Source: Arcuatula senhousia | Lineage: Eukaryota > Mollusca > Bivalvia > Mytilida > Mytilidae | Assembly: GCA_963971305.1 (NCBI GenBank) | Contig: OZ020314.1 | Span: 2,604,001-2,668,000, forward strand | Direction: 5' to 3' | DNA length: 64,000 bases | Shown here: piece by piece, positions 3,241 to 62,770 of the stretch | Position numbering within the stretch: position 1 is the first letter of the stretch | Layout: the number at the start of each line of letters is the position of its first letter | Translations under genes and position numbers: made by a program | The notes under the pieces: generated by a model | What the model was told of the DNA's origin: nothing | Databases searched by the model: none | The model's input: only the letters and a program-made list of their open reading frames with translations

Positions 3241-3254
3241 TGATGTTTACTTTA

Positions 3255-25550: not shown

Positions 25551-25555
25551 ATTTT

Positions 25556-36415: not shown

Positions 36416-36756
36416 ACAAAAGGCAGTCCTGGCGTTCCATACTTTTCCATTGAAAACCCGTCTTAATTGTTGTATAATGCAATTATAGCCAAACAAAAAA
36501 TCAGTATACTGACGAATAGAATATCAAATTTCAGTTTTCTTTATTTCTTCAAGTGATTGCAATGAAATAAGGTAGTGGCTCTGAATTCTTTTTTTAGTAT
36601 TATTCATTCAGTTTTAGTACAAAGCAAAGGCTATAAGTTTGTCCTGGGCAGTATTGTACCAATAGCCAAAATAGTTTTTAATTCCGTTTTTACGTTTCGT
36701 TTTTTCGTTCCGTTTTCCATTCCACCTTTTAGCAACACCCTATCAAAACTAGGCTG

Positions 36757-38039: not shown

Positions 38040-38046
38040 GTACATT
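38040..38046. repeat. Left 7-bp target-site duplication of the 24.7-kb element
   Basis: GTACATT lies directly before the left terminus (GAGGTATAAT...) and again directly after the right terminus (62764-62770). Confidence 0.75.
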
Positions 38047-38740
38047 GAGGTATAATATAATAGTACTTTTGTAGTTCGTCACCAGGAAAATCACCAGGCA
38101 ATGCGCATGCGCAAATATGACGTCAAACCGCTACTTTCACTTTTCGATCTTCGGTGTCATTGATATGGATCTATTTATAAATATCTTTAATGATATCAAT
38201 AAATTTAATTGTTTATTTTGAAATCGCCATTTCAATTTTGGATTTAGAAAAATCTAACCGTTCTTTTTGGGGTAGATTAACTATGGGAACGAATTGTATT
38301 TATAAAATTTAATATTTTGAAATCAGCATTTCATTTTTGTATTAAAAAACCTTACTGTTCTTTTTTGGGGTTGATTAACATTTATCTTAAAAGGGGGGAG
38401 GAGGTGAGGTGAAAAATGGAGAAAAAAATATTTAAATATATATGATACGTGATAAGAAAACATTGCTTAATACTCCATGTCAATAAAAATATCAGGATGC
38501 AAAAATCAAGAAATAAACAGACAGGTCAGTGCTTTTGAAAAAAATAAGGCAATGTAGTGTTTTAGCTGAAAAAATATTTTCCGATTTTCCGAAAATAAAA
38601 ATAGTTGCTCAGACCATAATAAAACAATATCTGAACTCATTGGAGAGATAAAAATTAACACTGTCAGCCATAAACATGATGACTCAATTTTTTAAGAAGA
38701 GGAACATAACAACAGGAGGATAACATACGGCACTTTATTT
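38047..38740 (+). repeat. Left unique TIR arm of the 24.7-kb element
   Basis: Matches the reverse complement of 62164-62763, with substitutions and one extra partial tandem duplication (about 38200-38283 repeated at 38304-38380, AAATCGCCATTTCA / AAATCAGCATTTCA, then TTCTTTTTGGGGTAGATTAA / TTCTTTTTTGGGGTTGATTA). Near the tip it carries TCACCAGG twice (38079-38097), GCGCATGCGC (38103-38112) and TGACGTCA (38118-38125). Confidence 0.9.
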
Positions 38741-39650
38741 CTATCACCAGGGTCCATACATCTATCACCAGGGTCTATACATCTATCACCAGGGTCTATA
38801 CATCTATCACCCGAGTCCATACATCTATTACCAGGGTATATACATCTATCACCAGGGTCCATACATCTATCACCAGGGTCTATATATCTATCACCAGGGT
38901 CTATACATCTATCACCAGGGTCCATACATCTATCACCAGGGTCTCTACATCTATTACCATGGTCTATACATCAATCCCCAGGGTCTCTACATCTATCACC
39001 AGAGTCCATACATCTATCACCAGGGTCTATACATCTATCACCAGGGTCTATACATCTATCACCAAGGTCTCTACATCTATCACCAGGGTCTCTTGATCTA
39101 TCACCAGGGTCTATACATCTATCACCAGGGTCCATACATCTATCACCAGGGTCTATACATCTATCACCAGGGTCCATTCATCTATCACCAGGGTCTATAC
39201 ATCTATCACCAGGGTCCAAACATCTATCACCAGGGTCTTTACAGCTATCACCAGGGTTTCTACATCTATAAAAAGGTTCTCAACATCTATCATCAGGGTC
39301 CATACATCCATCACCAGGTTCTATACATCTATCACCGGGGTCTCTACATCTATAACTAGGGTCTCTACATCTATCACCAGGGTCTCTACACTCATCACCA
39401 GGGTCCATACATCAATCACCAGGGGCCTTCAACATTTGCAATGAAAACTGTTAGCCCTGTTTTCTCTGATTTGAGGGTCTATACATCTATCACCAAGGTT
39501 CATTCATCTATCACCAGGGTCTTTACATCTATCACCAGGGTCCATACATCTAACACCAGGATCTCTACATCTATCACTATGGTCTATACATCTATCCTCA
39601 GGGTCTCTACATCTATCACCAGGGTTTATACATCTATCACCAGGGTCTCT
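38741..39650 (+). repeat. 21-bp minisatellite, left block 1
   Basis: About 43 units of CTATCACCAGGGTCYAYACAT type. Includes the non-minisatellite marker CAACATTTGCAATGAAAACT, GTTAGCCCTGTTTTCTCTGA (39431-39475), which recurs at four other places in the array. Confidence 0.93.
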
Positions 39651-39890
39651 ACATTAGACATTAGACAGTATTTTATTTCAGCCAATCAAGGACCTTTGCA
39701 GGCAATGACAATTAACATTTATGATTTAAAACAGTACATAACAGACATAGCTTAGCAATACTGCAATTGTTTATATAAATTAATTGTAATGCAAAATATA
39801 TAATGCATGTGTGTGTTTGTGTGGAACAAGCATGGTTGACTATATTAATAAGAATAGATACACAGTGTGTTAATGATATAGATATTCATC

Positions 39891-40107
39891 TCTCAGCTAT
39901 GGACACCAAGGGACGGTGCTTAAGGAAACACTTTTATTTTTTTTAAACAAATAGTGTTCCTCCTCGTGTCCAAAGCAGAGAGACAAACTTAATTAAATTT
40001 TTAATATCAAATTATTTGTTTAAGTGCTACAGACACCAAGGGACGGTGCTTAAGGAGATACTTAATAAAATATAGAGTGATTTAAAATAGTACTTCTCCT
40101 CGTGTCT
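39891..40107 (-). other. Structured 3'-UTR motif, copies A and B (LINE 1)
   Basis: Two copies (about 39891-39981 and 40030-40107). In the LINE sense strand the order is CACGAGG, stem-loop, then AGCACCGTCCCTTGG. Outer stems differ but pair in each: GGACAC/GTGTCC in A and AGACAC/GTGTCT in B. Inner stems also pair (AACAC/GTGTT in A). The two conserved strands would form an internal loop between two helices. Function unknown; it may be an RNA element recognised by the LINE reverse transcriptase. Confidence 0.65.
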
Positions 40108-40183
40108 AAAGCAAATAAACAAAACATAAGTGTACCCCCCTTTTGATTTGTTGCTGGAGAAGACAGGTGTTCAGATATAAATA

Positions 40184-41871
40184 TCATTTGCAATTCTTTT
40201 TAATAAAACTGCAAAGGTTATGTAATACAGCTTTATCTTCACAGGTCATTAACCAAAAGAATTTTTCGTTATTATTTAAGTTTATAAAGTTATGACATGT
40301 TTTTGAAATAATATCAAACAGTTCCTGTCTTTCTCCAACAAAATTTGTACAGGTGATAAGAAAGTGCATCTCATCCTCTACTTCTTCAGAGTCACAGTGA
40401 AGACAATGTCTAAGGTGTGGAGGTATACCCTGGTATCTACCAGATTCAATCCGCAAATGATGCGATGAAACTCTAAGCTGTGTTAAGCTTCTCCTCCACT
40501 CAAAATTGCTAATAAGACTCAAATAGTTTTCAAACCCATGACTAGTTTTAAATTTAACAAAAGTTCTTAATTTGCCTTCTGAATTGTTGGATAGTTGGTT
40601 CTCCCATAATTTAATGTATGAATCTTTAATAATATTTCTAATTTTCTCTTTTGACTTGTAATTGTCCTTCAGTTTTGGTATATTTTCTATAATTTTATGG
40701 ATAGCACTCCATGAAGGTTTATGCTGTTCATGTAAAAGTTTGGATTCTTGGTAAGCATCATTTAAAAGGGGAAATTTTTCATTGTTTTCTAAACGAATCC
40801 AATAATTGATCATAGCTTTAACAATGTCAAAATGAAGTGGAAATCTACCCAGTTCTGAAAGAACAGCAAAATTTGTGGTCTTTTTGTGTACCCCAAGTAT
40901 AAATTTACAAAATTTTATGTGCAATTTTTCACAGGTAATGTTACCATAAATTTTGTCAAGTGAAGGAGAACCATTCCTAAATTTAGCAGTATAAGGGTTG
41001 AAAAATCCCCATATCTCACAGCCATATAAAAGAATAGGCTTTATTGTATGATCAAATACATTGATACTAGTCTTTACATTAGGGTTATAGGTCAAAAAGT
41101 CTTTTTGTAATTTAAAGTATGCCTTTAGACTCTTTTTTTATAACTCATTTTGAGCAAAGGAGAAGGTACCAGAAGCACTAAAAAACACACCTAGATATTT
41201 ACAGTGTTGCACACATTCTATATTAAACTCTTTGTAGTTGAACTTATGCTCTATGTGTCTGCCTGCCTTGTTGAAAATTAATACTTTGGTTTTTTGGGGG
41301 TTTACAGTAAGACACCAATCATTGCAGTACCTACTTAGGATATCTAGTTTAGATTGAAGTCCTGTGGCACTGGTGGATAGAAGAATTATATCATCTGCAT
41401 ACATTAAGCAGTTCAAAGGTTTTCCATTTAAAATTACTGGGTCAGGAGAGTTTTCAAAAAGATCAGGAAGATCATTTATGAAGATTTTAAACAAGTTAGG
41501 ACTTAAATTGTCTCCTTGTTTGACCCCAAGTTGGATGGAAAAGAACTCTGTCAACGCATTTTTAATTTTAACACATGAGTTACTTATTTCATACATTCTT
41601 TTGATAATATTATAGAAACGATTACCAACCCCAATTTTTAACAGTTTTAGTTTGATCCCCGCGTGTACCACAGTATCAAATGCTTTTTGAAAATCAACAA
41701 AGCAGGCATATACTCTGCCATCTTTAGAGCCGCAATATTTGTCAACCACACATTTAAGTATAAATAAGTGGTCAGTTGTTCTAGCTTTTCTTGTGAACCC
41801 AACCTGACACTTGTTAATAATATTGTGTTTTTCAAGAAAAAGATCTAATCTTGTATTAATGATACTGTTAA
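40184..41871 (-). pseudogene. LINE 1 ORF2: RT and C-terminal region with one in-frame stop
   Basis: The frame continues from the truncation at 41871 to a stop at 40184 except for one TAA at 41138-41140. Domains: RT finger/palm from the truncation (GFTRKARTTDHLFILK, ACFVDFQKAFDTV, LGVKQGDNLSPNLFKIFIND), catalytic YADD (MYADDIILLS), thumb (KTKVLIFNKAGR). Then come the post-RT segment KPILLYGCEIWGF, KFCKFILGVHKKTTNFAVLS and a C-terminal zinc-knuckle-like CLHCDSEEVEDEMHFLITC. The TAA sits where the sister copy has the Tyr of ELYNKSLKAYYKL, so it is a simple nonsense change. The clade within APE-type LINEs is not assigned. Confidence 0.85.
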
Positions 41872-42869
41872 ACATCTATCACAAGGGTCTATACATCTAT
41901 CACCAATGTCTCTACATCTATCACCAGGGTCTCTTCATCTATCACCAGGGTCTATACATCTATCACCAGGGTCCATACATCTATCACCAGGGTCTATACA
42001 TCTATCACCAGGATCCATTCATCTATCACCAGGGTCTATACATCTATCACCAGGGTCTATACATCTATCACCAGGGTCCAAACTTCTATCACCAGGGTCC
42101 ATACATCTATCACCAGGGTCTATACATCTATCACCAGGGTCCATGCATTAATCACCAGGGTCCATACATCTATTACCAGTGTCTATACATCTATCACCAG
42201 GGTCCATACATATATCACCAGGGTCCATACATCTATCACCAGGGTCTATACATCTATCACCAGGGTCCATACATCTATCACCAGGGTCTATACATCTATC
42301 ACCAGGGTCCATTCATCTATCACCAGGGTCTTAACATCTATCACCAGGGTCTTAGAATCTATCACCAGGGTCCATACATCTATCACCAGGGTCTATACAT
42401 CTATCACCAGGGTCCATACATCTATCACCAGGGTTCATACATCTATCACCAGGGTCTATACATCTATCACCAGGGTCTTTACATCTATCACCAGGGTTTC
42501 TACAACTATAAAAAGGTTCTCAACATCTATCATCAGGGTCTCTATATCTATCACCAGGGTCCGTACATGTATCACCAGGTTCTATACATCTATCACCGGG
42601 GTCTCTACATCTATAACTAGGGTCTCTACATCTATCACCAGGGTCTATACATCAATCACCAGGGTCTACACTCATCACCAGGGTCCATACATCAATCACC
42701 AGGGGCCTTCAACATTTGCAATGAAAACGGTTAGCCCTGTTTTCTCTGATTTGAGGGTCTATACATCTATCACCAGGGTTCATTCATCTATCACCAGGGT
42801 CTTTACATCTATCACCAGGGTCCATACATCTATCACCAGGGTCCATACATCTATCACCAGGGTCTCTAC
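41872..42869 (+). repeat. 21-bp minisatellite, left block 2
   Basis: About 47 units in the same orientation as block 1, open in several frames (269 codons of IYHQGLY type), with another copy of the AACATTTGCAATGAAAA marker near 42710. Confidence 0.93.
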
Positions 42870-43168
42870 AATACCAATACCAATATACCAATATTTTTTA
42901 TTTTTCCTAATTAGGTCCCCATTAGGGCAATTACATGTAACAGTCATGATTAAAACAATGTTAACATTACAGTACATAAACAAGTACATGTATACTCAAT
43001 AATGTAATGAATAAAATTGAAATGTAAATATATATTTTTTTTAAGTAATGATAGAGCAGATGACAGAACCAGCACTCGCAAATCCGGCCAACGAAATGAA
43101 AGACTTTAACATGAACTGTATGATTTAAAATAAATAAATAAATATATTCAATTCACCAGATTGTCAGA

Positions 43169-43420
43169 CTGCAGCAGGCACCAAGGGACGGTGCTTAAGG
43201 TATGTGAAAAATTTCACATCCTCCTCGTGCCTGTTGCAGAAGAACAAGCTGTGAAAAAAAAAGTGCATGATCAATACGGATACATTTTTCATGCATCTTT
43301 AAAGTTAATAATATGATGAATAAAATAATAGTTTTGTTTTTCAGCAGAGGGCACCAAGGGACGATGCTTAAGGTATGTGGATAGTATATGTATATCACAT
43401 CCTCCTCGTGTCCAATGCTG
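43169..43420 (-). other. Structured 3'-UTR motif, copies C and D (LINE 2)
   Basis: Copy C (43169-43239) is the best example. Outer stem CTGCAGCAGGCAC pairs over 13 positions with GTGCCTGTTGCAG, inner stem TATGTGAAA with TTTCACAT, separated by the conserved loop strands CAAGGGACGGTGCTTAAGG and CCTCCTC (plus-strand reading). Copy D (43342-43420) keeps the loop strands (one change, CGATGC) with different paired stems (CAGCA/TGCTG, GGCAC/GTGTC, TATGTG/CACAT). Confidence 0.7.
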
Positions 43421-43483
43421 AAAAACAAATGAGGAATATGATCTTAAGTCTTAAAGAAGCCATACAAGTTAGTTCATGTTTTT

Positions 43484-44236
43484 TTAAATAAATTTTGCTG
43501 TTGCCGAAAGCACTGTATGTTCCTCCGAGTTCAGGAGCCAAATCATTTTGTTAACTGAGTTAAGATTATCAAAATTTGAACAATGTTGGCTTATTTTTTG
43601 TAAGAGGATATTTCTATCTTCATTTAACTTTGTAAAGTCAAACAAAAAATGAGATTCGTCCTCCACTTCACCAGAAGAGCAACGAGTGCAGGTTCTGTCT
43701 TCTGGGAGAGTACCCTGGTATCTGCCAGTTTCAATTTTTAAATGATGACATGATATGCGAAGTTTTGTGAGACTCCTCCTTTGCTCAAAATTATTTAATA
43801 TTGAAAGATATTTCTCCCATCCATAATTGGATTTCATTTTTATATAAGTTCTTAATTTTCCATCCTTTTGTTCTTTGAGCTTTTTATACCATGATTCAAT
43901 AAATTTTGATTTTAAAAGAGTTTTTGATTTATTTTTGAAAGTCTGTAATGATGAACTTGTTGGATAAAGATTTTTTATTTCAGGCATGCTTTCTAAAAGA
44001 GTTTGTATAGCTCCATACCAAGATGATTTCTTTGATAAAAAGAGGTTTTTAGATGTTTCAAACGCATCTTGGAGAATAGGAAATGAAGTCTTTAAATTAT
44101 TCAAATGATGAAGATAGTTAAGCATAGCTTTAATAATATCATATTGTAGTGGAAATCTCCCCAATTCTGACAATACGCCAAAGTTTGAGGATTTATACTA
44201 TGAACTCCAAGAATATTTTTACAAAATTTAGTATGA
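43484..44236 (-). pseudogene. LINE 2 ORF2 C-terminal remnant
   Basis: The remnant starts with TKFCKNILGVHS at the truncation, then a frame break. SELGRFPLQYDIIKAMLNYL continues open to a stop at 43484 and includes the zinc-knuckle-like CTRCSSGEVEDESHFLFD, where the final Cys is replaced (FDF). No RT domain is left. Confidence 0.8.
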
Positions 44237-44843
44237 AGTATACATCTATCACCAGGGTCCATGCATTAATCACCAGGGTCCATACACCTATTACCAGCGT
44301 CTATACATCTATCACCAGGGTCCATACATCTATCACCAGGGTCCATACATCTATCACCAGGGTCTATACATCTATCACCAGGGTCCATACATCTATCACC
44401 AGGGTCTATACATCTATCACCAGGGTCCATTCATCTATCACCAAGGTCTTAACATCTATCACCAGGGTCTTAACATCTATCACCAGGGTCCATACATCTA
44501 TCACCAGGGTCTATACATCTATCACCAGGGTCCATACATCTATCACCAGGGTTCATACATCTATCACCAGGGTCTATACATCTATCACCAGGGTCTTTAC
44601 ATCTATCACCAGGGTTTCTACATCTATAAAAAGGTTCTCAACATCTATCACCAGGGTCTCTATATCTATCACCAGGGTCCGTACATGTATCACCAGGTTC
44701 TATACATCTATCACCGGGGTCTCTACATCTATAACTAGGGTCTCTTCATCTATCACCAGGGTCTATACATCAATCACCAGGGTCTCTACACTTATCAACA
44801 GGGTCCATACATCAATCACCAGGGGCCTTCAAAATTTGCAATG
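44237..44843 (+). repeat. 21-bp minisatellite, left block 3
   Basis: About 29 units between LINE 2 and the duplicated LINE fragment; a long SITRVYT-type frame is a by-product. Confidence 0.92.
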
Positions 44844-45145
44844 AAGTCTGTAATGATGAACTTGTTGGATAAAGATTTTTTATTTCAGGCATGCTTTCTA
44901 AAAGAGTTTGTATAGCTCCATACCAAGATGATTTCTTTGATAAAAAGAGGTTTTTAGATGTTTCAAACGCATCTTGGAGAAAAGGAAATGAAGTCTTTAA
45001 ATTATTCAAATGATGAAGATAGTTAAGCATAGCTTTAATAATATCATATTGTAGTGGAAATCTCCCCAATTCTGACAATACGCCAAAGTTTGAGGATTTA
45101 TACTATGAACTCCAAGAATATTTTTACAAAATTTAGTATGAAGTA
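44844..45145 (-). repeat. Duplicated LINE 2 fragment
   Basis: Nearly identical to about 43935-44240 (same truncation joint GTATGAAGTATACATCTATC). It sits in the array about 909 bp away and has minisatellite on both sides. Its left joint fuses the GGGGCCTTCAAAATTTGCAA marker directly to LINE sequence. This is array duplication, not a separate insertion. Confidence 0.88.
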
Positions 45146-48100
45146 TACATCTATCACAATGGTCCATGCATTAATCACCAGGGTCCATACATCTATTACC
45201 AGTGTCTATACATCTATCACCAGGGTCCATACATCTATCACCAGGGTCCATACATCTACCACCAGGGTCTATACATCTATCACCAGGGTCCATACATCTA
45301 TCACCAGGGTCTATACATCTATCACCAGGGTCCATTCATCTATCACCAGGGTCTTAACATCTATCACCAGGGTCTTAACATCTATCACCAGGGTCCATAC
45401 ATCTATCACCAGGGTCCATACATCTATCACCAGGGTTCATACATCTATCACCAGGGTCTATACATCTATCACCAGGGTCTTTCTTTACATCTATCACCAG
45501 GGTTTCTACATCTATAAAAAGGTTCTCAAAATCTATCACCAGGGTCTCTATATCTATCACCAGGGTCCGTACATGTATCACCAGGTTCTATACATCTATC
45601 AACAGGGCCCATTCATCTATCACCAGGGTCTTTACATCTATCACCAGGGTCTCTACATCAATGACCAGGGTCTCTACATCAATCACAAGGGTCCATACAT
45701 CTATCACCAGGGTCCGTACATGTATCACCAGGGTCTTTACATCTATCACCAGGGTCAATACATCTATCACCAGGGTCCGTACATCTATCACCAGGGTCTC
45801 TACACTCATCACCAGGGTCCACACATCAATCACCAGGGTCTTTACATCTATCACCAAGATTTATACATTTATCACCAGGGTCTCTACATCAATGACCAGG
45901 GTCTACATCAATCACAAGGGTCCATACATCTATCACCAGGGTCCGTACATGTATCGCCAGGGTCTTTACATCTATCACCAGGGTCAATACATCTATCACC
46001 AGGGTCCGTACATCTACCACCAGGGTCAATACATCTATCACCAGGGTCCATACATCTATCACCAGGGTCTCTACACTCATCACCAGGGTCCACACATCAA
46101 TCACCAGGGGCTATACATCTATCAGTAGGGTATCTACATCTATCACCAGGGTATATACATCTATCACCAGGGTCCATACATCTATCACCAGGGTCTATAT
46201 ATCTATCACCAGGGTCTATACATCTATCACCAGGGTCCATACATCTATCACCAGGGTCTCTACATCTATCACCATGGTCTATACATCAATCCCCAGGGTC
46301 TCTACATCTATCACCAGAGTCCATACATCTATCACCAGGGTCCATACATCTATCACCAGGGTCTATACATCTATCACCAGGGTCCATACATCTATCACCA
46401 GGGTCTATACATCTATCACCAGGATCCATTCATCTATCACCAGGGTCTTAACATCTATCACCAGGGTCTTAACATCTATCACCAGGGTCCATACATCTAT
46501 CACCAGGGTCCATACATCTATCACCAGGGTTCATACATCTATCACCAGGGTCTATACATCTATCACCAGGGTCTTTCTTAACATCTATCACCAGGGTTTC
46601 TACATCTATAAAAAGGTTCTCAAAATCTATCACCAGGGTCTCTATATCTATCACCAGGGTCCGTACATGTATCACCAGGTTCTATACATCTATCAACAGG
46701 GCCCATTCATCTATCACCAGGGTCTTTACATCTATCACCAGGGTCTCTACATCAATGACCAGGGTCTCTACATCAATCACAAGGGTCCATACATCTATCC
46801 CCAGTGTCCGTACATGTATCACCAGGGTCTTTACATCTATCACCAGGGTCAATACATCTATCACCAGGGTCCGTACATCTATCACCATGGTCTCTACACT
46901 CATCACCAGGGTCCACACATCAATCACCAGGGTCTTTACATCTATCACCAAGATTTATACATTTATCACCAGGGTCTCTACATCAATGACCAGGGTCTAC
47001 ATCAATCACAAGGGTCCATACATCTATCACCAGGGTCCGTACATGTATCGCCAGGGTCTTTACATCTATCACCAGGGTCAATACATCTATCACCAGGGTC
47101 CGTACATCTACCACCAGGGTCAATACATCTATCACCAGGGTCCATACATCTATCACCAGGGTCTCTACACTCATCACCAGGGTCCACACATCAATCACCA
47201 GGGGCTATACATCTATCAGTAGGGTATCTACATCTATCACCAGGGTATATACATCTATCACCAGGGTCCATACATCTATCACCAGGGTCTATATATCTAT
47301 CACCAGGGTCTATACATCTATCACCAGGGTCCATACATCTATCACCAGGGTCTCTACATCTATCACCATGGTCTATACATCAATCCCCAGGGTCTCTACA
47401 TCTATCACCAGAGTCCATACATCTATCACCAGGGTCTATACATCTATCACCAGGGTCTATACATCTATCACCAAGGTCTCTACATCTATCACCAGGGTCT
47501 CTTGATCTATCACCAGGGTCTATACATCTATCACCAGGGTCCATACATCTATCACCAGGGTCTATACATCTATCACCAGGGTCCATTCATCTATCACCAG
47601 GGTCTATACATCTATCACCAGGGTCCAAACATCTATCACCAGGGTCTTTACAGCTATCACCAGGGTTTCTACATCTATAAAAAGGTTCTCAACATCTATC
47701 ATCAGGGTCCATACATCCATCACCAGGTTCTATACATCTATCACCGGGGTCTCTACATCTATAACTAGGGTCTCTACATCTATCACCAGGGTCTATACAT
47801 CAATCACCAGGGTCTCTACACTCATCACCAGGGTCCATACATCAATCACCAGGGGCCTTCAACATTTGCAATGAAAACTGTTAGCCCTGTTTTCTCTGAT
47901 TTGAGGGTCTATACATCTATCACCAGGGTTCATTCATCTATCACCAGGGTCTTTACATCTATCACCAGGGTCCATACATCTAACACCAGGGTCTCTACAT
48001 CTATCACCATGGTCTATACATTTATCCTCAGGGTCTCTACATCTATCACCAGGGTTTATACATCTATCACCAGGGTCTCTACATCTATCACAAGGGTCTA

Positions 48101-50563: not shown

Positions 50564-50939
50564 ACAGATATATACCTGCATTACTATCTATAATATACAC
50601 ATGTGCATGTATATGCTGTGAACCATGTTTGCCTAAAATAATATCACTTTGTGCATGTGCATAAATACTTTAATAATGTTTAACAATTATGTTTAACTTG
50701 GTTACAAATATATATATTGATATTATTACATATTATTATCAGTGTAAACATAAAAATGTAACATAAAAGTAATAATTCATGTATCAATTAACATACTCCT
50801 TCAATCTCTTTTGCACATTTTCCCAAATATTATAAGCTGAATAATTCAAAAAACAAATTATTAAGCGTCTCTTCCAAAATTTTCCAACCAGTTATAATTA
50901 AATCCAGTAAACTAATAAACAGATTATATATATACATAT
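50564..50939. other. AT-rich spacer before LINE copy 4
   Basis: Not minisatellite. It may be the 5' part of the LINE insertion or an unrelated insertion; no endonuclease start (WNVNG-like) is recognisable in it. Confidence 0.4.
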
Positions 50940-50942
50940 ATA

Positions 50943-53900
50943 CTTTTTTTCTTTCCACTTATTACCAAACATGTTGACAAAACAAATGATCCAATCTTTT
51001 TAAAGCAAATCAGTAACTTTGATCTAATATTTTTGGTAGAAACACATTTGGGATATGACCAAAATCTGTCAAATATTGGACCCTTTTATTGTCATTTAGT
51101 ATGCAGGCCAAAAACTAAAACTAACAATAGATATTTTGGTGGTCTAGCCGTGTTATGCAACAAAGCAATTAAAAAACATGTAAAGATTTTAAAAAATAGC
51201 AACCCTAACTTTCAATGGGTTAAATTAGAAAAAGATTTTTTTGGATTCAATAGAGATCTTTATGTTTGTTGTGTGTATAATCCACCTGTAAACTCTTCGT
51301 ATACCAAAGAACTTGGCCAGGATATTTTAAGTTTTATTGAAAAGGATATTGATAACTATCAAAATCAGGGCAATATATTGCTATGTGGAGATTTTAATGC
51401 TAGAGTTTCAAATCAAAATGATTATATTAATAAGGACAGTCAAGATCCTTTACCAATTTTTGATTCATATTGTTTTGACAAACCAATCCTTTCTAGAAGA
51501 AGTAAAGATAATAAACTAGACTCTAGAGGCAAAGACTTAATTGACCTCTGCATAAGCAACCAACTAAGGATATTGAATGGCCGAGTTCTTGGGGATTCAT
51601 TTGGAAATTATACTTGTTACACCCCAAAAGGGGCTAGTATTGTGGATTATGTCCTCGTATCAGAGCATATTCTTAATCAAATCTTATATTTTAATGTTTG
51701 CGAATTTTTACCATGTTTATCTGATTGTCACTGCTTGCTAAAATGGTGTATAAGTGCTAAATATCAAACTGAACAAGTAAAAGATGAACCAAATGCAGAT
51801 AATATGTCTCAGGGGTATATCTGGTCAGAGGATTCCCCAGCTTTATTCCAAGAAGCTTTGTTATCACCTGACATTAAATCTCGATTAGATAACTTTTGTG
51901 CATCTGCCTGCAATAATATTGAAGAAATTAATTCAGGGGCATCTGAACTAGCTAATATAATCGTAACTGCAGCCAGTAAGTCATTGAAACAACGACGACC
52001 AAAACCTATCAACAAAAATAAAAACAAGAAATATTTTGATAATGATCTCTTTAAAATGAGGAAAAACTTAATGAGTTATGGAAAAATCTTTTCTAGATAC
52101 CCAAATGATCCAAGCGTACGTGGACATTATTATAAGTTATTACGAGAATATACCAAATCTAGGAAGACAAAATATAAGCTTTTTAAAAAGTCTTTATTAC
52201 AAAAAATTGAGACTCTCCATGAAAATAATCCAAAAGAATATTGGAAATTAATAGATGAGTTAAAATGTGGAAATAAGGATGATACAGCTTCATCCATATC
52301 AGCCTCAGACTGGTTCTCACACTTTGAAAAATTAAACATTCCCGATAAAAATTTTGAAAAACAAATAGAAGTTCTCAAAAAGCAACTCAATAAACTTGAA
52401 CAAACTTTGGAGTTCACTGAACTAGACATTAAAATCAAAGAATCTGAAATAACCAAAGCCATTTCTGAACTAAAATATAACAAATCACCTGGTTTAGACA
52501 ACATCAGTAACAATATGTTAAAATGTAGTCAAGTCCATCTCTTACCACCTCTTTGTAAGTTATTTAATAAATGTTTTTCATTGGGATACTACCCAGAAAA
52601 TTGGACATTAGGTTATATTACTCCTATACATAAAGGAGGAGATTCCACTGACCCTAATAATTACAGAGGCATAACTATTACTAATGCAATTGGTAAACTA
52701 TTCAATAGAATTCTTGATAATAGATTAACAAAATTTTTAGATAAATATCATACAATAAATGATTGTCAGCTAGGCTTTACTAAGAAAGCTGGCACTTCTG
52801 ATCATATGTTCATTTTAAAGACAATTATTGACAAATATTGTTCAAAAAAAGAAGGTCGAGTTTTTGCTTGCTTCGTCGACTTCCAAAAAGCTTTCGACAC
52901 TGTCTTACATACTGGAATAAAGATTAAACTTTTAAAAAATGGTGTTGGAAAACACTTTTATAATATTATTAAAAGTATGTACTGACAAAGTAAATCTTGT
53001 GTTAAAATAAATAGAAAATTAACAAACTTCTTTCATAATAAAGTGGGAGTAAAACAGGGAGATAATCTGAGCCCTAATTTATTCAAAATATTTATAAATG
53101 ATCTTCCCAGCTACTTTACTGAGGAGCAAGACTCAATTAAACTAAATGATCGTACAATTCACTCTCTCCTTTATGCAGATGATGTTATCCTCTTGTCTTC
53201 ATCAGCACAAGGATTACAAGACAAATTAGACAAACTTAAATTGTTTTGTAATGACTGGTGTATGAAAATAAATGTAAAGAAAACAAAAGTTCTTATATTT
53301 AATAAAGCAGGAAGAACCATCAAGCAAAACTTTCATTTTAACAATCAAAATATTGAATGTGTATCCCAATATAAATATTTAGGTATACATTTCAGTGCCT
53401 CAGGGTCTTTCACAACTGCTCAAAAAGAATTATACAACAAAAGTCTTAAAGCATACTATAAACTGCGAAGAGACTTTCTATCCTTCGGTCCAAATGTGCG
53501 AAATAGTGTCCATGTTTTTGACCACACAATAAAACCTATATTATTGTATGGGTCAGAGATATGGGGCTTCTTCAATCCTTTTAAGAAAAAATTTACTGAA
53601 GAAAATATTCTATTGGAAAACATATATCCCAACATACAATGTGAAAAACTACACATTAAATTTTGCAAATACATTCTTGGAGTCAATAAAAAGGCCAGCA
53701 ATTTTGCAACATTATCAGAATTGGGAAGATTTCCTCTTTACTTTGATATAATTAAATCAATGCTTAGATACTGGTATAGACTTGAAAATCTGAAGGATGG
53801 TTTTACTTTATTGAAAGATGCTTATCAAGAGAGCAAAAAACTTGACAGCCTCAAAATACCCTCATGGTATAGTTCAATAAATGTCTTATTTAAAAAAGTT

Positions 53901-54419
53901 TCAGGACTAAATGAATTAAACAAACAAAATAATGTTAGTGCTAACCAATTTAAAATTTTGACTAAAAAACATATTTTTCAAACATTTGAAGAAAATTGGA
54001 AAACACAACTTCAAAAACACTCTGAAAGAAAGCTCTGTAATTACAGTAAAGTTAAAACACACTTCGGATTCGAAGGATATTTATTAAAAATTAACAATTT
54101 CGAACAGAGACATCATTTTACTAGACTACGTATCTCATCTCATAGATTACAAATTGAGAGGGGAAGATATCAGGGTATTCCCCGAAATGATAGACTTTGT
54201 CAACGTTGCTCATCTGGTGTAGTAGATGATGAACTACACTTTTTGCTTAATTGTACAACTTGTCTTTTAATTAGGGATCAATTACAAGAAAACATTCTAG
54301 GGAATTGTCCTAACTTTATTCAACTGAACTCCGAACAAAAGGTGTATTGGATTCTTACATGTGAAAACAAGGATATATTAGATCTTGTATGTGATTTAAT
54401 AAACAATAGTAAAGTGTGA
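50943..54419 (+). pseudogene. LINE 4 ORF2: APE endonuclease plus reverse transcriptase, one in-frame TGA
   Basis: The frame is coding-like from about 50943 (LFFFPLITKHVDKTNDPIFL) through VETHLGYD. The TTG at 51033 is an internal codon; no ATG start is evident, so the 5' end may be truncated. APE endonuclease: LLCGDFNARV, DYVLVSEH, LSDCHCLLKW. RT: GYITPIHKGGDSTDPNNYRG, ACFVDFQKAFDTV, VGVKQGDNLSPNLFKIFIND, LLYADDVILLS. C-terminal: KPILLYGSEIWGF, KFCKYILGVNKKASNFATLS and the zinc-knuckle-like CQRCSSGVVDDELHFLLNC. One TGA at 52983-52985 (KSMY*QSKSCVKI) is the only break; sister copies have a sense codon there. Confidence 0.88.
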
Positions 54420-54500
54420 CCTTTTAACTTGGTTAGATTATAGACATTTATTATAATTTGGTTTTCATTGTAAAATGCTCATTAATATTCTCCCTCTCAA

Positions 54501-54868
54501 TATGCCAAGAGCACCGTCCCTTGGTGAGTTCTGCACATGGGTCTGCCTAATAAAGACCTATGTGCTTTACTCACGAGGTGGCATATATTTACAGGGGAAT
54601 ATATTAACAAAAAATAATAATTAAAAACTTAATAACTTATGCATGTTGGTGTGCCAAGAGCACCGTCCCTTGGTAGCTTCTGCTGGCTGGTCACTTGCTC
54701 TACAACTGACCATCCTGCTTTGGCTACAAGGCGGCACACAACTGTATACCCCCCCCAAAAAAAAAAAAAATCCTTTAAAAAGGTATGCCAAGAGCACCGA
54801 CCCTTGGTGAGTTCTGCATACGGGCTTCTTTAATAAAGGCCTGTATGCTTCACTCACGAGGTGGCATA
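54501..54868 (+). other. Structured 3'-UTR motif, copies E, F and G (LINE 4)
   Basis: Copies at 54501-54585, 54648-54742 and 54784-54868. Each reads stem X, AGAGCACCGTCCCTTGG, a long hairpin Y, CACGAGG (ACAAGG in F), then stem X'. X pairs as TATGCCA/TGGCATA in E and G and GTGTGCC/GGCACAC in F. Y in E pairs GCACATGGGTCT with AGACCTATGTGC; in G, GCATACGGGC with GCCTGTATGC, with compensating changes. Relative to LINEs 1 and 2 the loop is closed on the other helix, so the same internal loop appears circularly permuted. Confidence 0.75.
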
Positions 54869-55188
54869 TTTGAAAGGAATAATTAAATTATATATAATAA
54901 ACAATATTATAATAAATAAATAAATAAGATGATAATAAATAGACTAAATTATAAATCAAGTAATATATGCATCTTATGATTAAGCCAAGTTCACTGATAA
55001 TAGAGGACATGATCCACAGAACTATACTATAGTTGTTATTTATGCAATCACTGTGTATGTTTTATACAATATATACTTTTTGCACTGTGTTATATAAATG
55101 TTTGTATATCATATTAATGCTATTCAATATCAACTATGCCCCAAAAGGGCCCATTTTTATGGCTAATAAAGTATCTTCTTCTTCTTCT

Positions 55189-55513
55189 ACATCTATCACC
55201 AGGGTCCGTACATCTCTCACCAGGGTCTATACATCTATCACCAGGGTCCATACATCTATCACCAGAGTCTATACATCTATCACCAGGGTCCATACATCTA
55301 TCACCAGGGTCCGTACATTTATCACAAGGGTCCGTACATCTATCACCAGGGTCTATACATCTATCGTCAGGGCCTATACATTTATCACCAGGGTTTCGAC
55401 ATCTGTCACAAGGGTCTCTTCATCTATCACCAGGGTCTCTACATCTATCACCAGGGTCTCTTCATTAATCACCGGGGTCTAAACATCAATCACCAGGGTC
55501 TATACATCTATCA
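55189..55513 (+). repeat. 21-bp minisatellite, last left-oriented block
   Basis: About 15 units in CTATCACCAGGGTC orientation, ending at TATCACCAAAGTTTTCCTAT. Confidence 0.9.
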
Positions 55514-55608
55514 CCAAAGTTTTCCTATGACATATGAACAAAGGGTCTCACCAGGGTCTAGACGATATTGAGATGTGGAATAAGTGTACGCGACACAACA
55601 AAACACCC
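55514..55608. other. Centre of the 24.7-kb element (orientation switch)
   Basis: A spacer of about 95 bp containing GATATTGAGATGTGGAATAA and GTGTACGCGACACAAC; the minisatellite flips from CTATCACCAGGGTC to GACCCTGGTGATAG across it. It could be all that remains of an internal domain. No ORF. Confidence 0.7.
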
Positions 55609-56035
55609 TGGTGATAGACGTAAAGACCCTGGTGATAGATGTTGAGACCCTGGTGATAATATATATTGATCCTGGTGATAGATGTAGAGATCCTGGTGGT
55701 AGATGTTTAGACCCTGGTGATTGATGTTTAGACCCTGGTGATTGATGTATGGACCCTGGTGATGAGTGTAGAGACCCTGGTGATAGATGAAGAGACCCTG
55801 GTGATAGATGTATAGTCCTGAGTGTTAGATGTAGAGACCCTGGTGATAGATGTATACACCCTGGTGATAGATGTTAAGACCCTGGTGATTGATGTTTAGA
55901 CCCTGGTGATAGATGTATAGACCCTGGTGATAGATGCATAGAACCTGGTGATTGATGTATGGACCCTGGTGATGAGTGTAGAGACCCTGGTGATTGATTT
56001 ACAGACCCTGGTGATAGATGTAGAGACCCCGGTTA
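55609..56035 (-). repeat. 21-bp minisatellite, right block 1 (inverted)
   Basis: About 20 units in GACCCTGGTGATAGATGTA orientation. Confidence 0.92.
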
Positions 56036-58411
56036 TAAAATTCAAATTCTTTATTCAGCCCAATTAGAGGGGCCCATTGAGGGCATATAAATCAATACAT
56101 GTATACAAACAAGACATATTTTACAATGATTATGTTGATTGGACATAAAAACAAATAAATATTGAAGAACAATAATGTGAGTCAGTCAGGACAAAGAGGG
56201 ATAACTCTACACGAATTATGATCTTTTCTAATCAGGGATATCAGTAATAGGTATTTACTAAATTGTATATCTATATGGAAAGAGGGATAACTCTAATTGC
56301 CAAGAGAAGAAAAAAACAATTCATGTATAAAAAATGCGACAAAGAACTGGTGACAACTAAGTTTTGTTTTGGTTTTTTTTTTATAAATAAGTTTCACTTA
56401 AGCAAATATTTAGCTCTCAATGCATAAAATGAGGATAGCAATTCACATAATATAGAGTTAAAATGAAGGCTATCGTTCGACATGAACCAAATAAGCAGAT
56501 TGCTATCAGATATTTGGGATAAATATGGGTATTTTTTTAATAATTCATCCAGAAAGGTTTTTCTTTGGTTATTATAAAGGGTACATTTAAATAAAAAATG
56601 TTCTTCGTTTTCAACCGAGTTCATTGAGCAAAACTGGCATGTTCTCTCTGATCTTGGCAGTGTTATACTTTTCCCATGTTCATCAATTTTTCGCTCATAA
56701 CGGCCTCTCTCTATGCGGAGACAGTGATTGCTTATTCTAAATCTAGTTAAAATTACTCTCTTATCTCTGTTCTTCATATTGAGGTAATCTTCAAAAGTGA
56801 AAGCATATTTAAATTTAAAGTAGTTGCTTAATTTACTGTGATCATCTCTTTTTAATAAGTCTCTTTGATGGCTCCAATATGTTAAAAAAATCAGTTTTGA
56901 TATTTTTTTTAAGTAAAATTTTGAATTTATTTTTACTGAGTTTTTTACAAAGTGCTAAATTTAGTCCAAGTTTTTCACTAAAAAACTTAATATTTGCATA
57001 CCATGATTGATAAGCCATAGCTTTATCAGAGGAGCTTTCAATATAAGCATCACTTAAGAGATCAGTGGGGGAGTTTTCAAGGCGGTGCCAATACATAAAT
57101 ATTTGAGTTACTATGTTAATATATAAAGGAAATCTACCTAGCTCTGATATAACTCCAATATTTGTGCAATTTTTTGAGACACCAAGAATGTACTTGCAAA
57201 ATTTAAGATTTAATTTATCAGGTTCCCAATCTTTGAAAATTTCAAAAAGATGCATGGCTCTTCTTTTTGGAGTCAAATTTAACATACCCCATATTTCACA
57301 GCCATATAAAGCTATTGGTTTGATGGTGTGATCGAATATATGAAGTAAGGTCTTAATTGATGGAGAACATGATTTAATGTTTTTGTAAAATTTAAAAGAG
57401 GCCTTTAGTCCTTTATCATATATATTTTTTTAGCAGCATTAAATTTTCCAGTATTAGTAAGAACTAGTCCTAAGTATTTATAGAATTTCACACATTCTAT
57501 TCTGTTTGCACCTATATTAAATTCATCTGACAGTAGTCTCCCATTTTTATTAAAGATTATAATTTGTGTTTTCTTTGTGTTTATTTCAAGACACCAGTCA
57601 TTACAGTATTGGTATAAAATATTAAGTTGGGTTTGTAACCCCTTTTTATTATCTGAAAATAACACCAGATCATCCGCATAGAGAAGGCAAGGTATACATT
57701 TATTATTTAATTGTAAACAGTCACATTTGTCCTCTAAAGCTTTGGGCAAATCGTTTATGAAAAATTTAAACAGGTTAGGACTTAAAACATCCCCTTGACG
57801 GACTCCAACTTTGGAGCTAAAAAAATCAGTTATTTTATTATCTACCCTCACACAAAGTCTGTCATTGTTATACATACTATTTAGAATTCTATAGAAAAAA
57901 CCATCAATATTTCCCTCTAACAGTTTTAACATGATACCAACATGAAGCACTTTGTCAAAGGCTTTACGAAAGTCCACAAAACATGTATATACTTTTTTGC
58001 TACCACAATTTAAATATTTATCAATAATGCATTTTAGAACAAAGACGTGATCCGAAGTCCTGGAATTCTTAGAGAACCCAATTTGAGTTTGATGTATAAT
58101 CTCGTTTTCAGACAAAAAATTATCAAGTCTGGTGTTTAAAATAATGTTAAACAGTTTGCCAATACTATTATTGATTGCTATTCCTCTATAATTTTCAGGT
58201 TTGTTGGGGTCTTCAGATTTGTACAAAGGGCATATAAAACTTTGAGACCAAGACTTCGGATAGTGACCACATCTAAATATTGCATTGAAAAGTTTTAGAA
58301 AACATGGGACCATGTGGGATTGTGACACTTTCAGCATTTCATTACTTATGTTGTCCAATCCAGGACTCTTTCCAGATTTGAGCTTTTTCAAAGCCTTTTG
58401 TAATTCAGACA
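56036..58411 (-). mobile_element. LINE copy 5, 5'-truncated, different subfamily
   Basis: Minus orientation. The 3' end lies at 56036 (GAATAAAGAATTTGAATTTT in the sense strand). The 3' UTR lacks the seven-copy structured motif but has GAAAGAGGGATAACTCTA-like sequence twice (56196, 56278). The 5' truncation joins minisatellite at about 58411. Confidence 0.85.
56394..58411 (-). pseudogene. LINE 5 ORF2: RT and C-terminal region with two frame breaks
   Basis: From the truncation: MSELQKALKKLKSGKSPGLD, then RT blocks SFICPLYKSEDPNKPENYRG, CFVDFRKAFDKV, VGVRQGDVLSPNLFKFFIND, LLYADDLVLFSD, thumb KTQIIIFNKNGR. The first break is at a TA run (about 57418-57428) that looks like 2-bp slippage. The frame continues KFCKYILGVSKNCTNIGVIS, SELGRFPLY..., with a second break near 56842-56870. 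The end is RFRISNHCLRIERGRYE, then CQFCSMNSVENEEHFLFKC. It is more diverged from copies 1 and 4 than they are from each other. Confidence 0.82.
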
Positions 58412-59172
58412 TATAGATGTAGAGACCCTGGCTATAGAAGTTTAGACCCGGGTGATTGATGTTTAGACCCTGGTGATTGATGTAGAGACCCTGGTTAAAG
58501 ATGTAGAGACCCTGGTTAAAGATGTAGAGACCCTGGTTAAAGATGTAGAGACCCTGGTGATAGATGTATAGACCCTTGTGATAGATGTTGAGAACCTGGT
58601 GATAGATGTAGAGACCATTGTTATAGATGTATAGACCCTGGTGATAGATGTTTAGAACCTGGTGATAATTGTAGAGACCCTGGTGATAGATGTATAGATC
58701 CTGGTGATAGATGAAGAGACCCTGGTTAAAGATGTAGAGACACTGGTGATACATGTATAGACCCTTGTGATAGATGTTGAGAACCTGGTGATAGATGTAT
58801 AGATCCTGGTGATAGATTACGGACCCTGGTGATAGATGTATAGACCCTGGTGATAGATGTGTAGACCCTGATGATAGATGTATAGACCTTGGTGATAGTC
58901 GTAAAGACCCTGAAGATAGATGTAGAGACCCTTGTTATAGATGTATAGACCCTGGTGATAGATGTATAGATCCTGGTGATAGATGTATAGACCCTAGTGA
59001 TAGATGTACGGACCCTGGTGATAGATTATGGACCCTGGTGATAGATGTATAGACCCTGGTGATAGATGTACGGACCCTGGTGATAGATGTATGGACCCTG
59101 GTGATAGATGTATGGACCCTGGGGATAGATGTATAGACCCTGGTGATAGATGTATGGACTCTGGTGATAGAT
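58412..59172 (-). repeat. 21-bp minisatellite, right block 2 (inverted)
   Basis: About 36 units, GACCCTGGTGATAGATGTA orientation, with some degenerate TTAAAGATGTAGAGACCCTG units near 58490-58550. Confidence 0.92.
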
Positions 59173-59257
59173 ATAAGATATTTATTTGCCAATTATGGTC
59201 CCACAGGGGGCTATTACAATTATAAACAATCATGATTTCAAACATACATAGACATAT
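59173..59257 (-). mobile_element. 85-bp LINE 3'-end insertion with a preserved empty site
   Basis: In the sense (minus) strand it reads AGCCCCCTGTGGGACCATAA, TTGGCAAATAAATATCTTAT, the GCCC..GGGNCC..ATTGG..AATAAA pattern shared by the other LINE ends here. The duplicated array segment at 61572-61592 has the same flanks without these 85 bp, which defines the insertion exactly. Confidence 0.8.
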
Positions 59258-62163
59258 GTTGAGACCCTCGTGATAGATGTCGAGATCCTGGACCCTTGTG
59301 ATAGATGTATGGACCCTGGTGATAGATGTAGAGACCCTGGTGATTGATGTATAGACCCTGGAAATAGATGTAGAGACCCTGGTGATAGATGTAGAGACCC
59401 TGGTGATAGATGTAGAAACCCAGGTGATAGATGTTATGACCCTGGTGATTGATGTATGGACCCTGGTGATGAGTGTAGAGACCCTGGTGATTAATGTACT
59501 GACCATGGTGATAGATGTAGAGACCCCGGTTATAGATGTAGAGACCCTGGCTATAGATGTAGAGACCCTGGTGATAGATGTTTAGACCCTGGTGATTGAT
59601 GTTAAGACCCTGGTGATTGATGTAGAGACCCTGGTTATAGATGAAGAGACCCTGGTGATAGATGTATAGACCCTGGTTATAGATGTAGAGACCTTTCTGA
59701 TAGATGTGTAGACCTTGGTGATAGGTGTTGAGAACCTGGTGATAGATGTAGAGACCCTGTTGATAGATGTTTAGACCCTGGTGATTGATGTATAAACCCT
59801 GGTGATAGATGTGTAGATCCTGGTGATAGATGAATAAAGACCCTGGTGATAGATTATGGACCTTAGTGAAAGATGTATGGACCCTGGTGATAGATGTATA
59901 GACCCTGGTGATAGATGTTTAGACCCTGTTGATAGATGTTTAGACCCCGGTGATAGACGTAGAGCCCTAGTGATAGATGTATAGATCCTTGTGATAGATG
60001 TAGAGACCCTGGTCATAGATGTAGAGACCCTGGTGATAGATGTAGAGACCCTGGTGACAGATATATAGACCCTGGTGATAATATGTATAGATCCTTGTAA
60101 TAGATGTAGAGACCCTGGTGATAGACGTAGAGCCCTTGTGATAGATGTATGGACCCTGGTGATAGATGTATTGGCCCTGGTGATAGATGTATGAACCCTG
60201 GTGATAGATGTAGAGACCCTTGTGATAGATGTAGAGACCCTGGTGATAGATGTAGAGACCCTGGTGATAGATGAAGAAACCCAGGTGATAGATGTTATGA
60301 CCCTGGTGATTGATGTATTGACCCTGGTGATGAGTGTAGAGACCCTGGTGGTTGATGTACTGACCATGGTGATAGATGTAGAGACCCTGGTTATAGATCT
60401 ACAGACCCTGGCTATAGATGTAGAGACCCTGGTGATATATGTTTAGACCCTGGTGATTGATGTTTAGACCCTGTTGATTGATGTTTAGACCCTGGTGATT
60501 GATGTAGAGACCCTGGTTATAGATGTAGAGACCTTTGTGATAGATGTATAGACCCTGGTGATAGGTGTTGAGAACCTGGTGATAGATGTAGAGACCCTGT
60601 TGATAGATGTATAGACCCTGGTGATAGGTGTTGAGACCCTATTCATAGATGTTTAGACCCTGGTGATTGATGTTTAAACCCTGGTGATAGATGTATAGAT
60701 CCTGGTGATAGATGAATAGAGACCCTGGTGATAGATTATGGACCTTAGTGAAAGATGTATGGACCCTGGTGATAGATGTATAGACCCTGGTGATAGATGT
60801 TTAGACCCTGTTGATAGATGTTTAGACCCTGATGATAGACGTAGAGCCCTAGTGATAGATGTATAGATCCTTGTGATAGATGTAGAGACCCTGGTTATAG
60901 ATGTAGAGACCCTGGTGATAGATATAGAGACCCTGGTGACAGATGTATAGACCCTGGTGATACTATAGATCCTTGTAATAGATGTAGAGACCCTGGTTAT
61001 AGATGTAGAGACCCTGGCTATAGATGTAGAGACCCTGGTTATAGATGTAGAGACCCTGGTGATAGATGTTTAGACCCTGTTGATTGATGTTTAGACCCTG
61101 GTGATTGATGTAGAGACCCTGGTGATAGATGTATGGACCCTGGTGATAGGTGTTGAGAACCTGGTGATAGATGTAGAGACCCTGTTGATAGATGTATAGA
61201 CCCTGGTATTAGGTGTTGAGACCCTGATGATAGATGTACAGACCCTGGTGATAGATGTATAGACCCTGGTGATAGATGTAGAGACCCTTGTTATAGATGT
61301 ATAGACCCTGGTGATAGATGTTTAGACCCTGGTGATTGATGTTTAGACCCTGGTGATAGATGTAGAGACCATGGTGATAGATGTATAGATCCTGGTGATA
61401 GATGTATAGACCCTAGTGATAGATGTACGGACCCTGGTGATAGATTATGGACCCTGGTGATAGATGTATAGACCCTGGTGATAGATGTACGGACCCTGGT
61501 GATAGATGTATGGACCCTGGTGATAGATGTATGGACCCTGGGGATAGATGTATAGACCCTGGTGATAGATGTATGGACTCTGGTGATAGATGTTGAGACC
61601 CTCGTGATAGATGTCGAAATCCTGGACCCTTGTGATAGATGTATGGACCCTGGTGATAGATGTAGAGACCCTGGTGATTGATGTATAGACCCTGGAAATA
61701 GATGTAGAGACCCTGGTGATAGATGTAGAGACCCTGGTGATAGATGTAGAAACCCAGGTGATAGATGTTATGACCCTGGTGATTGATGTATGGACCCTGG
61801 TGATGAGTGTAGAGATCCTGGTGATTAATGTATTGACCATGGTGGTAGATGTAGAGACACCGGTTATAGATGTAGAGACCCTGGCTATAGATGTAGAGAC
61901 CCTGGTGATAGATGTTTAGACCCTGGTGATTGATGTTAAGACCCTGGTGATTGATGTAGAGACCCTGGTTATAGATGAAGAGACCCTGGTGATAGATGTA
62001 TATACCCTGGTGATATATGTTGAGAACCTGGTAATAGATGTACAGAACCTGGTGATAGGTGTTGAGACCCTAGTCATAGATGTTTAGACCCTAGTGATTG
62101 ATGTTTAAACCCTGGTGATAGATGTATAGATCCTGGTGATAGATGTATGGACCCTGGTGATAG
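59258..62163 (-). repeat. 21-bp minisatellite, right block 3 (inverted)
   Basis: About 138 units. A block of about 0.9 kb (58950-59640 region) recurs 2,334-2,419 bp later (61440-61980). The block near 59690-60110 recurs near 60520-60980. ORFs of 70-200 codons (VIDVETL or SITRVST periods) are by-products. Confidence 0.93.
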
Positions 62164-62763
62164 AAATAAAGTGCCGTTTGTTTTCCTCCTGATGTTATGT
62201 TCCTCTTCTTAAACCGAGTCATCATGTTTACGGCTGACAGCGTTAATTTCTATCTCTCCAATGAGTTCAGATAATGGTTTATTATGGTCAGGGCAACTAT
62301 TTTTATTTTCGGAAAATCGGAAAATATTTTTTTCAGCTAAAACACTACATATTGCCTTATTTTTTCAAAGCACTGACCTCTCTGTTTACTTGATTTTTGC
62401 ATCCTGACATTTTTATTGACACGGAGTATAAGCAATGTTTTTTTATCACGTATCCTATTTAAATATTTTTTCAGCATTTTAAAACCTCACCCTCTCCCCC
62501 CTTTTAAAGGTAAATGATCGTTCCCATAGTTAATCTACCCCAAAAAGAACGGTTAGATTTTTTAAAATCCAAAATTGAAATGGCGATTTCAAAATAAACA
62601 ATTAAATTTATTGATATCATTAAAGATATTTATAAATAGATCCATATCAATGGTACAGAAGATCGAAAAGTGAAAGTAGCGATTTGACGTCACATTCGCG
62701 CATGCGCATTGCCTGGTGATTTTCCTGGTGACGAAATGCTAAAGTATTATAATATTATACCTC
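62164..62763 (-). repeat. Right unique TIR arm of the 24.7-kb element
   Basis: Inverted copy of 38047-38740. It starts AATAAAGTGCCG next to the minisatellite and ends at ATTATACCTC, followed by GTACATT. It carries TGACGTCA (62685-62692), GCGCATGCGC (62698-62707) and CCTGGTGA twice at the tip. It lacks the internal partial duplication found on the left. Confidence 0.9.
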
Positions 62764-62770
62764 GTACATT
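62764..62770. repeat. Right 7-bp target-site duplication of the 24.7-kb element
   Basis: GTACATT directly after the right terminus; see 38040-38046. Confidence 0.75.

Follow-up and report, generated by a model that had tools for sequence, protein, structure and literature searches.

A stretch of 64,000 nucleotides from the mussel Arcuatula senhousia (the window, C12:2604001-2668000 of a genome of 1.036 Gb) contains, at positions 38047-62763, a block of 24,717 bp that is bounded on both sides by the same seven bases. The question raised by this locus is whether such a block is a single mobile element and, if it is, of what kind and how it came to its present size. The analysis reported here, in which copies are named after their contigs (C6a being one of two copies on C6), argues that the block belongs to a family of non-autonomous cut-and-paste DNA transposons of the foldback type, a reading to which a probability of roughly 0.88 is assigned. 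A preliminary description of the window had proposed one mobile, non-autonomous foldback-like element with a 7-bp duplication, and this proposal is borne out by copies elsewhere, by their target-site duplications (TSDs) and by their empty sites; no transposase domain was found inside the window copy.

The terminus GAGGTATAAT lies at 38047 and its inverse at 62754-62763, each occurring only once within the window, and GTACATT directly abuts the element on both outer sides. These features, together with the unique arms, were found where they had first been placed; the left arm measures 693 bp, with the array beginning at 38740, and the right arm 599 bp, with the array ending at 62164. Between the arms, a 21-bp minisatellite reverses direction once: 354 of its units are forward, none of them starting beyond 55506, and 172 are inverted, none of them starting before 55605. 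The single reversal is thus as originally described, but its location in the geometric middle is not, since it separates about 17.5 kb on the left from 7.2 kb on the right. The window array also carries kb-scale internal duplications, at offsets of 1094, 2034 and 3128 bp, with many exact 60-mers in common.

Insight into the nature of the block comes from its relatives. A genome query with a 654-bp arm gave 63 matches, which include pieces of single arms and unrelated dispersed repeats, and a query with a 120-bp end (E<=10) gave 25 ends, all of the foldback family itself. These ends correspond to 12 two-armed copies of 6.6-24.7 kb (two on C6 and one each on C12, C2, C11, C524, C5, C4, C3, C14, C1 and C13) and to two stray ends, one (C11:17952201) backed by minisatellite array and the other (C2:52771193) consisting of 76 bp only. 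The C13 copy is missing one end, leaving 11 two-ended copies. As anticipated in the preliminary description, the other copies have the same GAGG termini and 7-bp TSDs: GAGGTATAAT is present at 24 of the 25 ends (the remaining one has GAGGTAAAAT, with one changed base), and an exact 7-bp duplication flanks 10 of the 11 two-ended copies, with an 8-bp match in none. (Among random flank pairs, 30 of 200,000 agree at 7 bases.) No shared target consensus is evident among the TSDs of the 11 two-ended copies. Chance is excluded as the source of the termini and TSD in the window, because there are 25 ends with the terminus and matching flanks in other copies.

Empty sites were sought by joining the flanks of 10 copies with a single TSD and searching the genome (40 matches listed). 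This search yielded contiguous empty sites for the window copy, C6a and C524; a fourth is provided by the C3 copy, which lies inside a ~170-bp tandem repeat and whose joined flanks are continuous through a neighbouring unit over 193 bp. The site expected for the window copy, its flanks joined with one GTACATT, is found at full length at least 12 times on C12, the best match (C12:1189281-1189460) extending over 180 of 180 bp at 98% and the rest being at 87-91%. For C6a, four sites are among the matches listed at 99-100%, two of them at 100%, and for C524 there is one at C10:14790218-14790400 (99%). These sites are paralogous, not allelic, and they show that insertion was precise. With inverted fixed termini, a TSD of constant length and empty sites, the family has the properties of a terminal inverted repeat (TIR) cut-and-paste transposon.

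The target site of the window copy itself belongs to a repeat for which at least 13 matches are listed (12 of full length; C12:304346-3196658). This repeat is a chromosome-local dispersed family, every listed match falling within the first 3.2 Mb of C12.

Assembling long tandem arrays is difficult, and the present assessment is made from the assembly alone; an assembler might have produced an inverted duplication or have collapsed or expanded an array. Such an artefact is unlikely, and is given only a minimal chance, because the identical layout is present at 12 places with different flanks and contiguous empty sites exist for four copies. In addition, TSDs are seen at all 11 two-ended copies (one of them imperfect), and the two classes of end described below, A and B, differ at fixed bases, so that neither arm is a mirror copy of the other.

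The order arm, forward array, inverted array is common to all 12 copies, and arm plus terminus is present at both ends in 11. At the change of direction there is a non-array middle in 10 of the 12; the exceptions, the window copy and C524, have their arrays nearly back to back. A foldback element is defined by a middle domain enclosed in long inverted arms that themselves contain tandem repeats, and the family has this structure. A common core of 913 bp is present, whole or in part, in 10 of the 12 copies (the other nine being 92-96% identical to the C4 query); it has no long open reading frames (ORFs) and is non-coding, and its final ~360 bp belong to a repeat that is common in the Arcuatula senhousia genome. 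The minisatellite is almost confined to the family: using a 37-bp pattern with <=2 mismatches, 2217 of 2252 genome-wide matches fall within 14 fetched loci.

This arrangement bears on how the elements became large. The preliminary description had offered, as an equal alternative, that a small element transposed with short arms and that the arrays then grew independently in place at each site. The kb-scale duplications in the window array would fit such growth, as would array lengths that vary widely among copies and an array-to-array identity of only ~84-87% (40 longest of 231 alignments), on account of which array order was dropped as a tree character and local blocks were used instead. However, arrays that grew independently would not have come to enclose the same core, whole or in part, in 10 of the 12 copies, and such growth does not account for an internal junction that the window copy and the C2 copy have in common. 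The smallest copy is still 6.6 kb, and among the 12 there is no two-ended copy that has a TSD and lacks array or core. Growth in place from a small element is thus no longer an equal alternative and is considered highly improbable.

At the junction just mentioned, the window and C2 copies have the same insertion end at the same place. Ahead of it, array and core edge align over 355 columns with 13 mismatches, the last 128 columns being identical, and 44 identical bases follow it; the window copy has 16 extra bases, and the C2 core aligns over its full length. The two copies pair in the arm tree (support 1.00 for the A ends and 0.75 for the B ends). Because they share this junction at sites with different TSDs (TATTGAA for C2, GTACATT for the window copy), a large composite of core, arrays and nested insertion moved as one and was remodelled later; gene conversion between copies would be a less simple account. 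The window copy then lost its core, gained four pieces and a fragment of long interspersed nuclear elements (LINEs), and enlarged its array through kb-scale duplications.

The nested LINE sequence, comprising the four pieces and a duplicated LINE-b fragment, amounts to 10,899 bp when boundaries are set by eye. Pfam identifies RVT_1 in three of the pieces and an endonuclease domain in LINE-c. Minus the LINEs, the window copy is ~13.8 kb; the other 11 copies are 6.6-16.1 kb. Its large size is to a good part the result of nested LINEs and array growth, and the exceptional size that had been claimed for the mobile unit does not stand, given that 10.9 of the 24.7 kb is LINE sequence absent from the preliminary description and that the array carries kb-scale duplications. 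When the window LINE proteins were used as queries (E<=1e-6), C5 was the only one of the other 11 copies with a related piece. Target-specific insertion of LINEs into the minisatellite was considered and rejected, since the 3' junctions (by eye) are at differing phases and in both orientations.

In the C3 copy (L019), element bases 821-5966 are occupied by a 5.1-kb insertion with two ORFs, the second of which resembles a reverse transcriptase (RT). The 3' piece of this insertion is also present in the C14 copy, where it occurs twice (99.9% identical), in the C2 copy and in the window copy (44 bp). It is graded as RT-like only (Pfam RVT_1 E=0.0097, score under the cutoff), and RT chains in the PDB gave no sequence match to it. 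A Penelope-like label, which would rest on motifs, was not adopted.

Each of the 11 two-ended copies has one A end (TATAATAGTACTTTTGTA class) and one B end (TATTATAATACTTTAGCA class), the B end of C6a being partly A-like. Within the first 30 bp, mean identity is 98% for A-A, 96% for B-B and 85% for A-B comparisons, and the A-B difference is as large within one element as between elements. Positions 31-80 have mean identities of 96.5-98% in all comparisons, the outer 80 bp being the best conserved; at positions 121-580, identities are 91-94% for A-A and 71-83% for B-B. The A and B arms of one element are sister branches (support >=0.78) in 3 of the 11 copies (C5, C524 and C6a), and the pairing of the C3 arms has a support of 0.00. 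Such a pattern suggests that there is selection for one A plus one B end, while the inner arms may homogenise.

The outer end contains TCACCAGG twice, at bases 33-40 and 45-52; the C524 A end and the C2 stray end each have one of the two altered. The same region has the palindrome TGCGCATGCGC, which is altered in the C2 A end, and, in most ends, TGACGTCA, motifs that we take to resemble the NRF1 and CRE promoter motifs, respectively. The minisatellite unit contains ATCACCAGG and so has an 8-mer in common with the TCACCAGG of the terminus; the proportion of shuffled units sharing an 8-mer that is found twice in the terminus is 0.0004. As a single strand, the outer 120 bp folds no better than shuffled sequence (z 0.33).

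Taken together, these features would be consistent with a mechanism in which a trans-acting transposase binds the outer ~80 bp, with the TCACCAGG pair as the likeliest recognition motif and the minisatellite as a set of amplified accessory binding sites for the same protein. After insertion, kb-scale duplication would remodel the arms and arrays, as would, in some copies, the copying of one arm onto the other. Galileo is the closest experimental precedent for binding sites within an array, on a small scale: its THAP domain binds at a distance of ~70 bp from the end and also within terminal tandem repeats (PMC3688188).

Several observations count against the transposon reading or against parts of its mechanism. 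The TSD of the C524 copy is a 6/7 match (AATCGAT/AATCAAT), and for 7 of the 10 joined sites no full-length empty match is among the matches listed. No partner with BLAST-detectable ends is present in the assembly (120-bp end query, E<=10), and since no transposase was found, its binding and its supply in trans are inferred. The control for motif sharing consisted of single-letter shuffles and the terminus of one copy. The low inner B-B identity comes in part from rearranged arms (C4, C1) that align badly, and the contrast within A-A comparisons, 91-94% in the inner arm vs ~97% in the outer, is modest. Because sister arms are well supported in only 3 of 11 copies, arm-to-arm copying is not general. 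Finally, ectopic gene conversion between copies could in principle have produced the junction common to the window and C2 copies.

An autonomous relative with the same termini, as envisaged in the preliminary description, was not found in the assembly. A 23-position terminal pattern (<=3 mismatches) gave 485 matches vs 521 for a reversed control, which is no excess, and nothing beyond the family is among the matches listed. None of the 25 ends belongs to a copy with a MULE or P transposase; a partner with diverged ends would escape the end query, as would one absent from this assembly. The C2 stray end, which is ~6.4 kb from a hAT-like ORF, was considered as an autonomous form and rejected, because it comprises 76 bp only and 9.9 kb of sequence contained no second end.

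Two known superfamilies were weighed as homes for the family. Membership among the Mutator-type (MULE) foldbacks, such as FB, Tm1, Tetris and Muta1, with an atypical 7-bp duplication, is a tentative possibility. MULE foldbacks typically have long arms with subterminal tandem repeats, Tm1 has asymmetric motifs, distinct at its two ends, and MULE transposases are common in this genome (at least 132 matches, with 150 of 284 candidates scored). However, MULE TSDs are 8-11 bp (PMC6446971), those of the MULE foldback Muta1 being 8-9 bp (PMC5225508), and the duplications here are 7 bp in 10 of 11 copies, 6/7 in one and never 8; furthermore, no paired GAGG ends were present in four fetched MULE loci of two families.

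A P-superfamily foldback like Galileo must be regarded as doubtful. Galileo has a 7-bp TSD, as does the present family, and long, internally repetitive arms with transposase-binding repeats; P-type transposases are present in the genome (82 matches), and one P family has ~507-bp arms. Yet the Galileo TSD consensus, GTAGTAC (PMC2775673), is absent from the 11 TSDs, and the local P family has CAC...GTG ends, not matched by the GAGG ends, with 8-bp TSDs in two of the three copies readable at both ends and none in the third; being one P family, it is a yardstick rather than a superfamily rule. In nine P loci of 7 kb, there were no inverted ends that matched exactly over 10 bases and were flanked by an exact TSD, nor any GAGG-type end pair with a TSD, and a looser scan of them gave a few weak candidates (in L035, L036, L037, L038 and L041), none of them GAGG. 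A GAGG-like pair in L033 was rejected, having no TSD. This test is weak, as 7 kb may miss one end, and did so for the single delimited P family.

That P-superfamily family, which is long-armed like Galileo, is ~7.65 kb in length (7.8 kb on C32, 10.2 kb on C2) with inverted arms of ~507 bp. It includes L036 (C2:30114489-30124674) and has matches on C1, C11, C4, C5, C15, C32 and C1242; its 8-bp TSDs are CATTTCAC and TCCACGGC, the third readable copy having no matching flank.

Dada elements, which insert in small-RNA genes, lack a TIR and have a TSD of 6-7 bp (PMC3706591), were ruled out by the long TIRs and varied TSDs of the foldback family. It is conceivable, though unlikely, that the family represents an undescribed transposase lineage (GAGG ends, a 7-bp stagger, obligate A plus B ends) whose recognition motif has been amplified into a private minisatellite, such that the kb-long arrays would act as landing pads that keep large, transposase-less elements mobile. 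The family is filed here as a foldback-type TIR transposon family, under neither P nor MULE.

The composite-arm architecture is that of the FB foldback. Galileo, of the P superfamily of Drosophila, is similar in its non-autonomous copies, which are mostly arm, and in having transposase-binding sites in the tandem repeats of its arms, binding that for the mussel family is only inferred. It differs in that its arms are ~0.3-1.3 kb with at most a few ~210-bp repeats, in one subfamily, whereas in the foldback family the arrays of 21-bp units reach 7.5 kb, the ends are of GAGG type, a target consensus is not evident and a transposase was not found. Tetris and Tm1 likewise have a variable middle between composite inverted arms that contain tandem repeats, and Tetris repeats gave rise to satellite arrays; these elements differ in having 8-10 bp TSDs, in contrast to 7 bp and kb-scale internal arrays here. 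Muta1 of Aedes aegypti, termed a 'type2 Foldback', has a long TIR in which subterminal tandem repeats come after a terminal motif, but it is 3.2 kb, has nine 12-bp repeats per TIR and encodes its transposase (PMC5225508). Rehavkus has a minisatellite adjoining its TIR; unlike the present family, it has a 9-bp TSD and a PHD-finger transposase, and its minisatellite is described before the 3' TIR only.

Table. Features of the foldback element in the window, with positions counted from the first base of the window.
Feature	Position	Strand	Remark
Left 7-bp TSD GTACATT	38040..38046		
Left unique arm, A-type end (TATAATAGTACTTTTGTA class; TGTAG here vs TGTAT in other copies)	38047..38739	+	
Subterminal pair TCACCAGG-N4-TCACCAGG, 8-mer as in minisatellite unit	38079..38098	+	2 matches in window (one per end), 0 in shuffles
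21-bp minisatellite, forward	38740..39654	+	
LINE-a, nested: RT (RVT_1) and C-terminal ORF, without endonuclease part, 5'-truncated	39655..41871	-	
21-bp minisatellite, forward	41872..42870	+	
LINE-b, nested: 3' part only; classed by its similarity to LINE-a, without a Pfam match itself	42871..44238	-	
21-bp minisatellite, forward, with kb-scale internal duplications	44239..50560	+	
LINE-b fragment, duplicated, within array	44829..45142	-	99.6% identical over 279 bp
LINE-c, nested: endonuclease (Exo_endo_phos) and RT (RVT_1), two ORFs	50567..55188	+	
21-bp minisatellite, forward	55188..55516	+	
Flip point: ~30 bp from the edge of the core and 44 bp from the end of an RT-like element, remnant of deleted core	55509..55605		
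21-bp minisatellite, inverted	55605..56037	-	
LINE-d, nested: RT (RVT_1) and C-terminal ORFs, without endonuclease part, 5'-truncated	56035..58412	-	
21-bp minisatellite, inverted	58413..62164	-	
Right unique arm, B-type end (TATTATAATACTTTAGCA class)	62165..62763	-	
Right 7-bp TSD GTACATT	62764..62770		

Elsewhere in the window, an ORF of 924 aa on the minus strand (15372-18146) has, by Pfam, the domains of an OTU protease and of a MULE transposase along with weak C2H2 matches, and it adjoins two long arrays of 71- and 72-bp units (18256-25555); among the MULE matches listed, those of similar score are on C1, C2, C38, C1210 and C5, in frames of up to 1084 aa. Just left of the element, at 36674-37474, short repeats of GACAACTCGGCCCGG lie on one side and the inverse unit on the other. 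A degenerate array of 21-bp period (TAACCACAGAGTATAATGTTG) at 35310-36384 has a unit unlike that of the element's minisatellite, and a 3.5-kb array of a 52-bp unit (~67 copies) is present at 2337-5865.

No mussel foldback family was found among the open-licence PMC papers listed, and the word 'foldback' is absent from the main text of a survey of bivalve transposons (PMC10294476). The family described here is of a known structural kind, with a mechanism like that of FB, Galileo and Muta1, and is a new family rather than a new mechanism; its unusual features are kb-long arms of nearly private minisatellite, a 7-bp TSD with GAGG ends, and two classes of end. What purpose long repetitive foldback arms serve is an old question, for which a published hint is a handful of Galileo binding sites (PMC3688188). 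In the present family, the 8-mer of the terminus is repeated many times in each copy, and there are 12 comparable copies, four of them with empty sites, which makes the binding-site idea directly testable. The family also suggests a route by which a transposon end may become a minisatellite, and it shows that foldback elements are inflated by nested retrotransposons.

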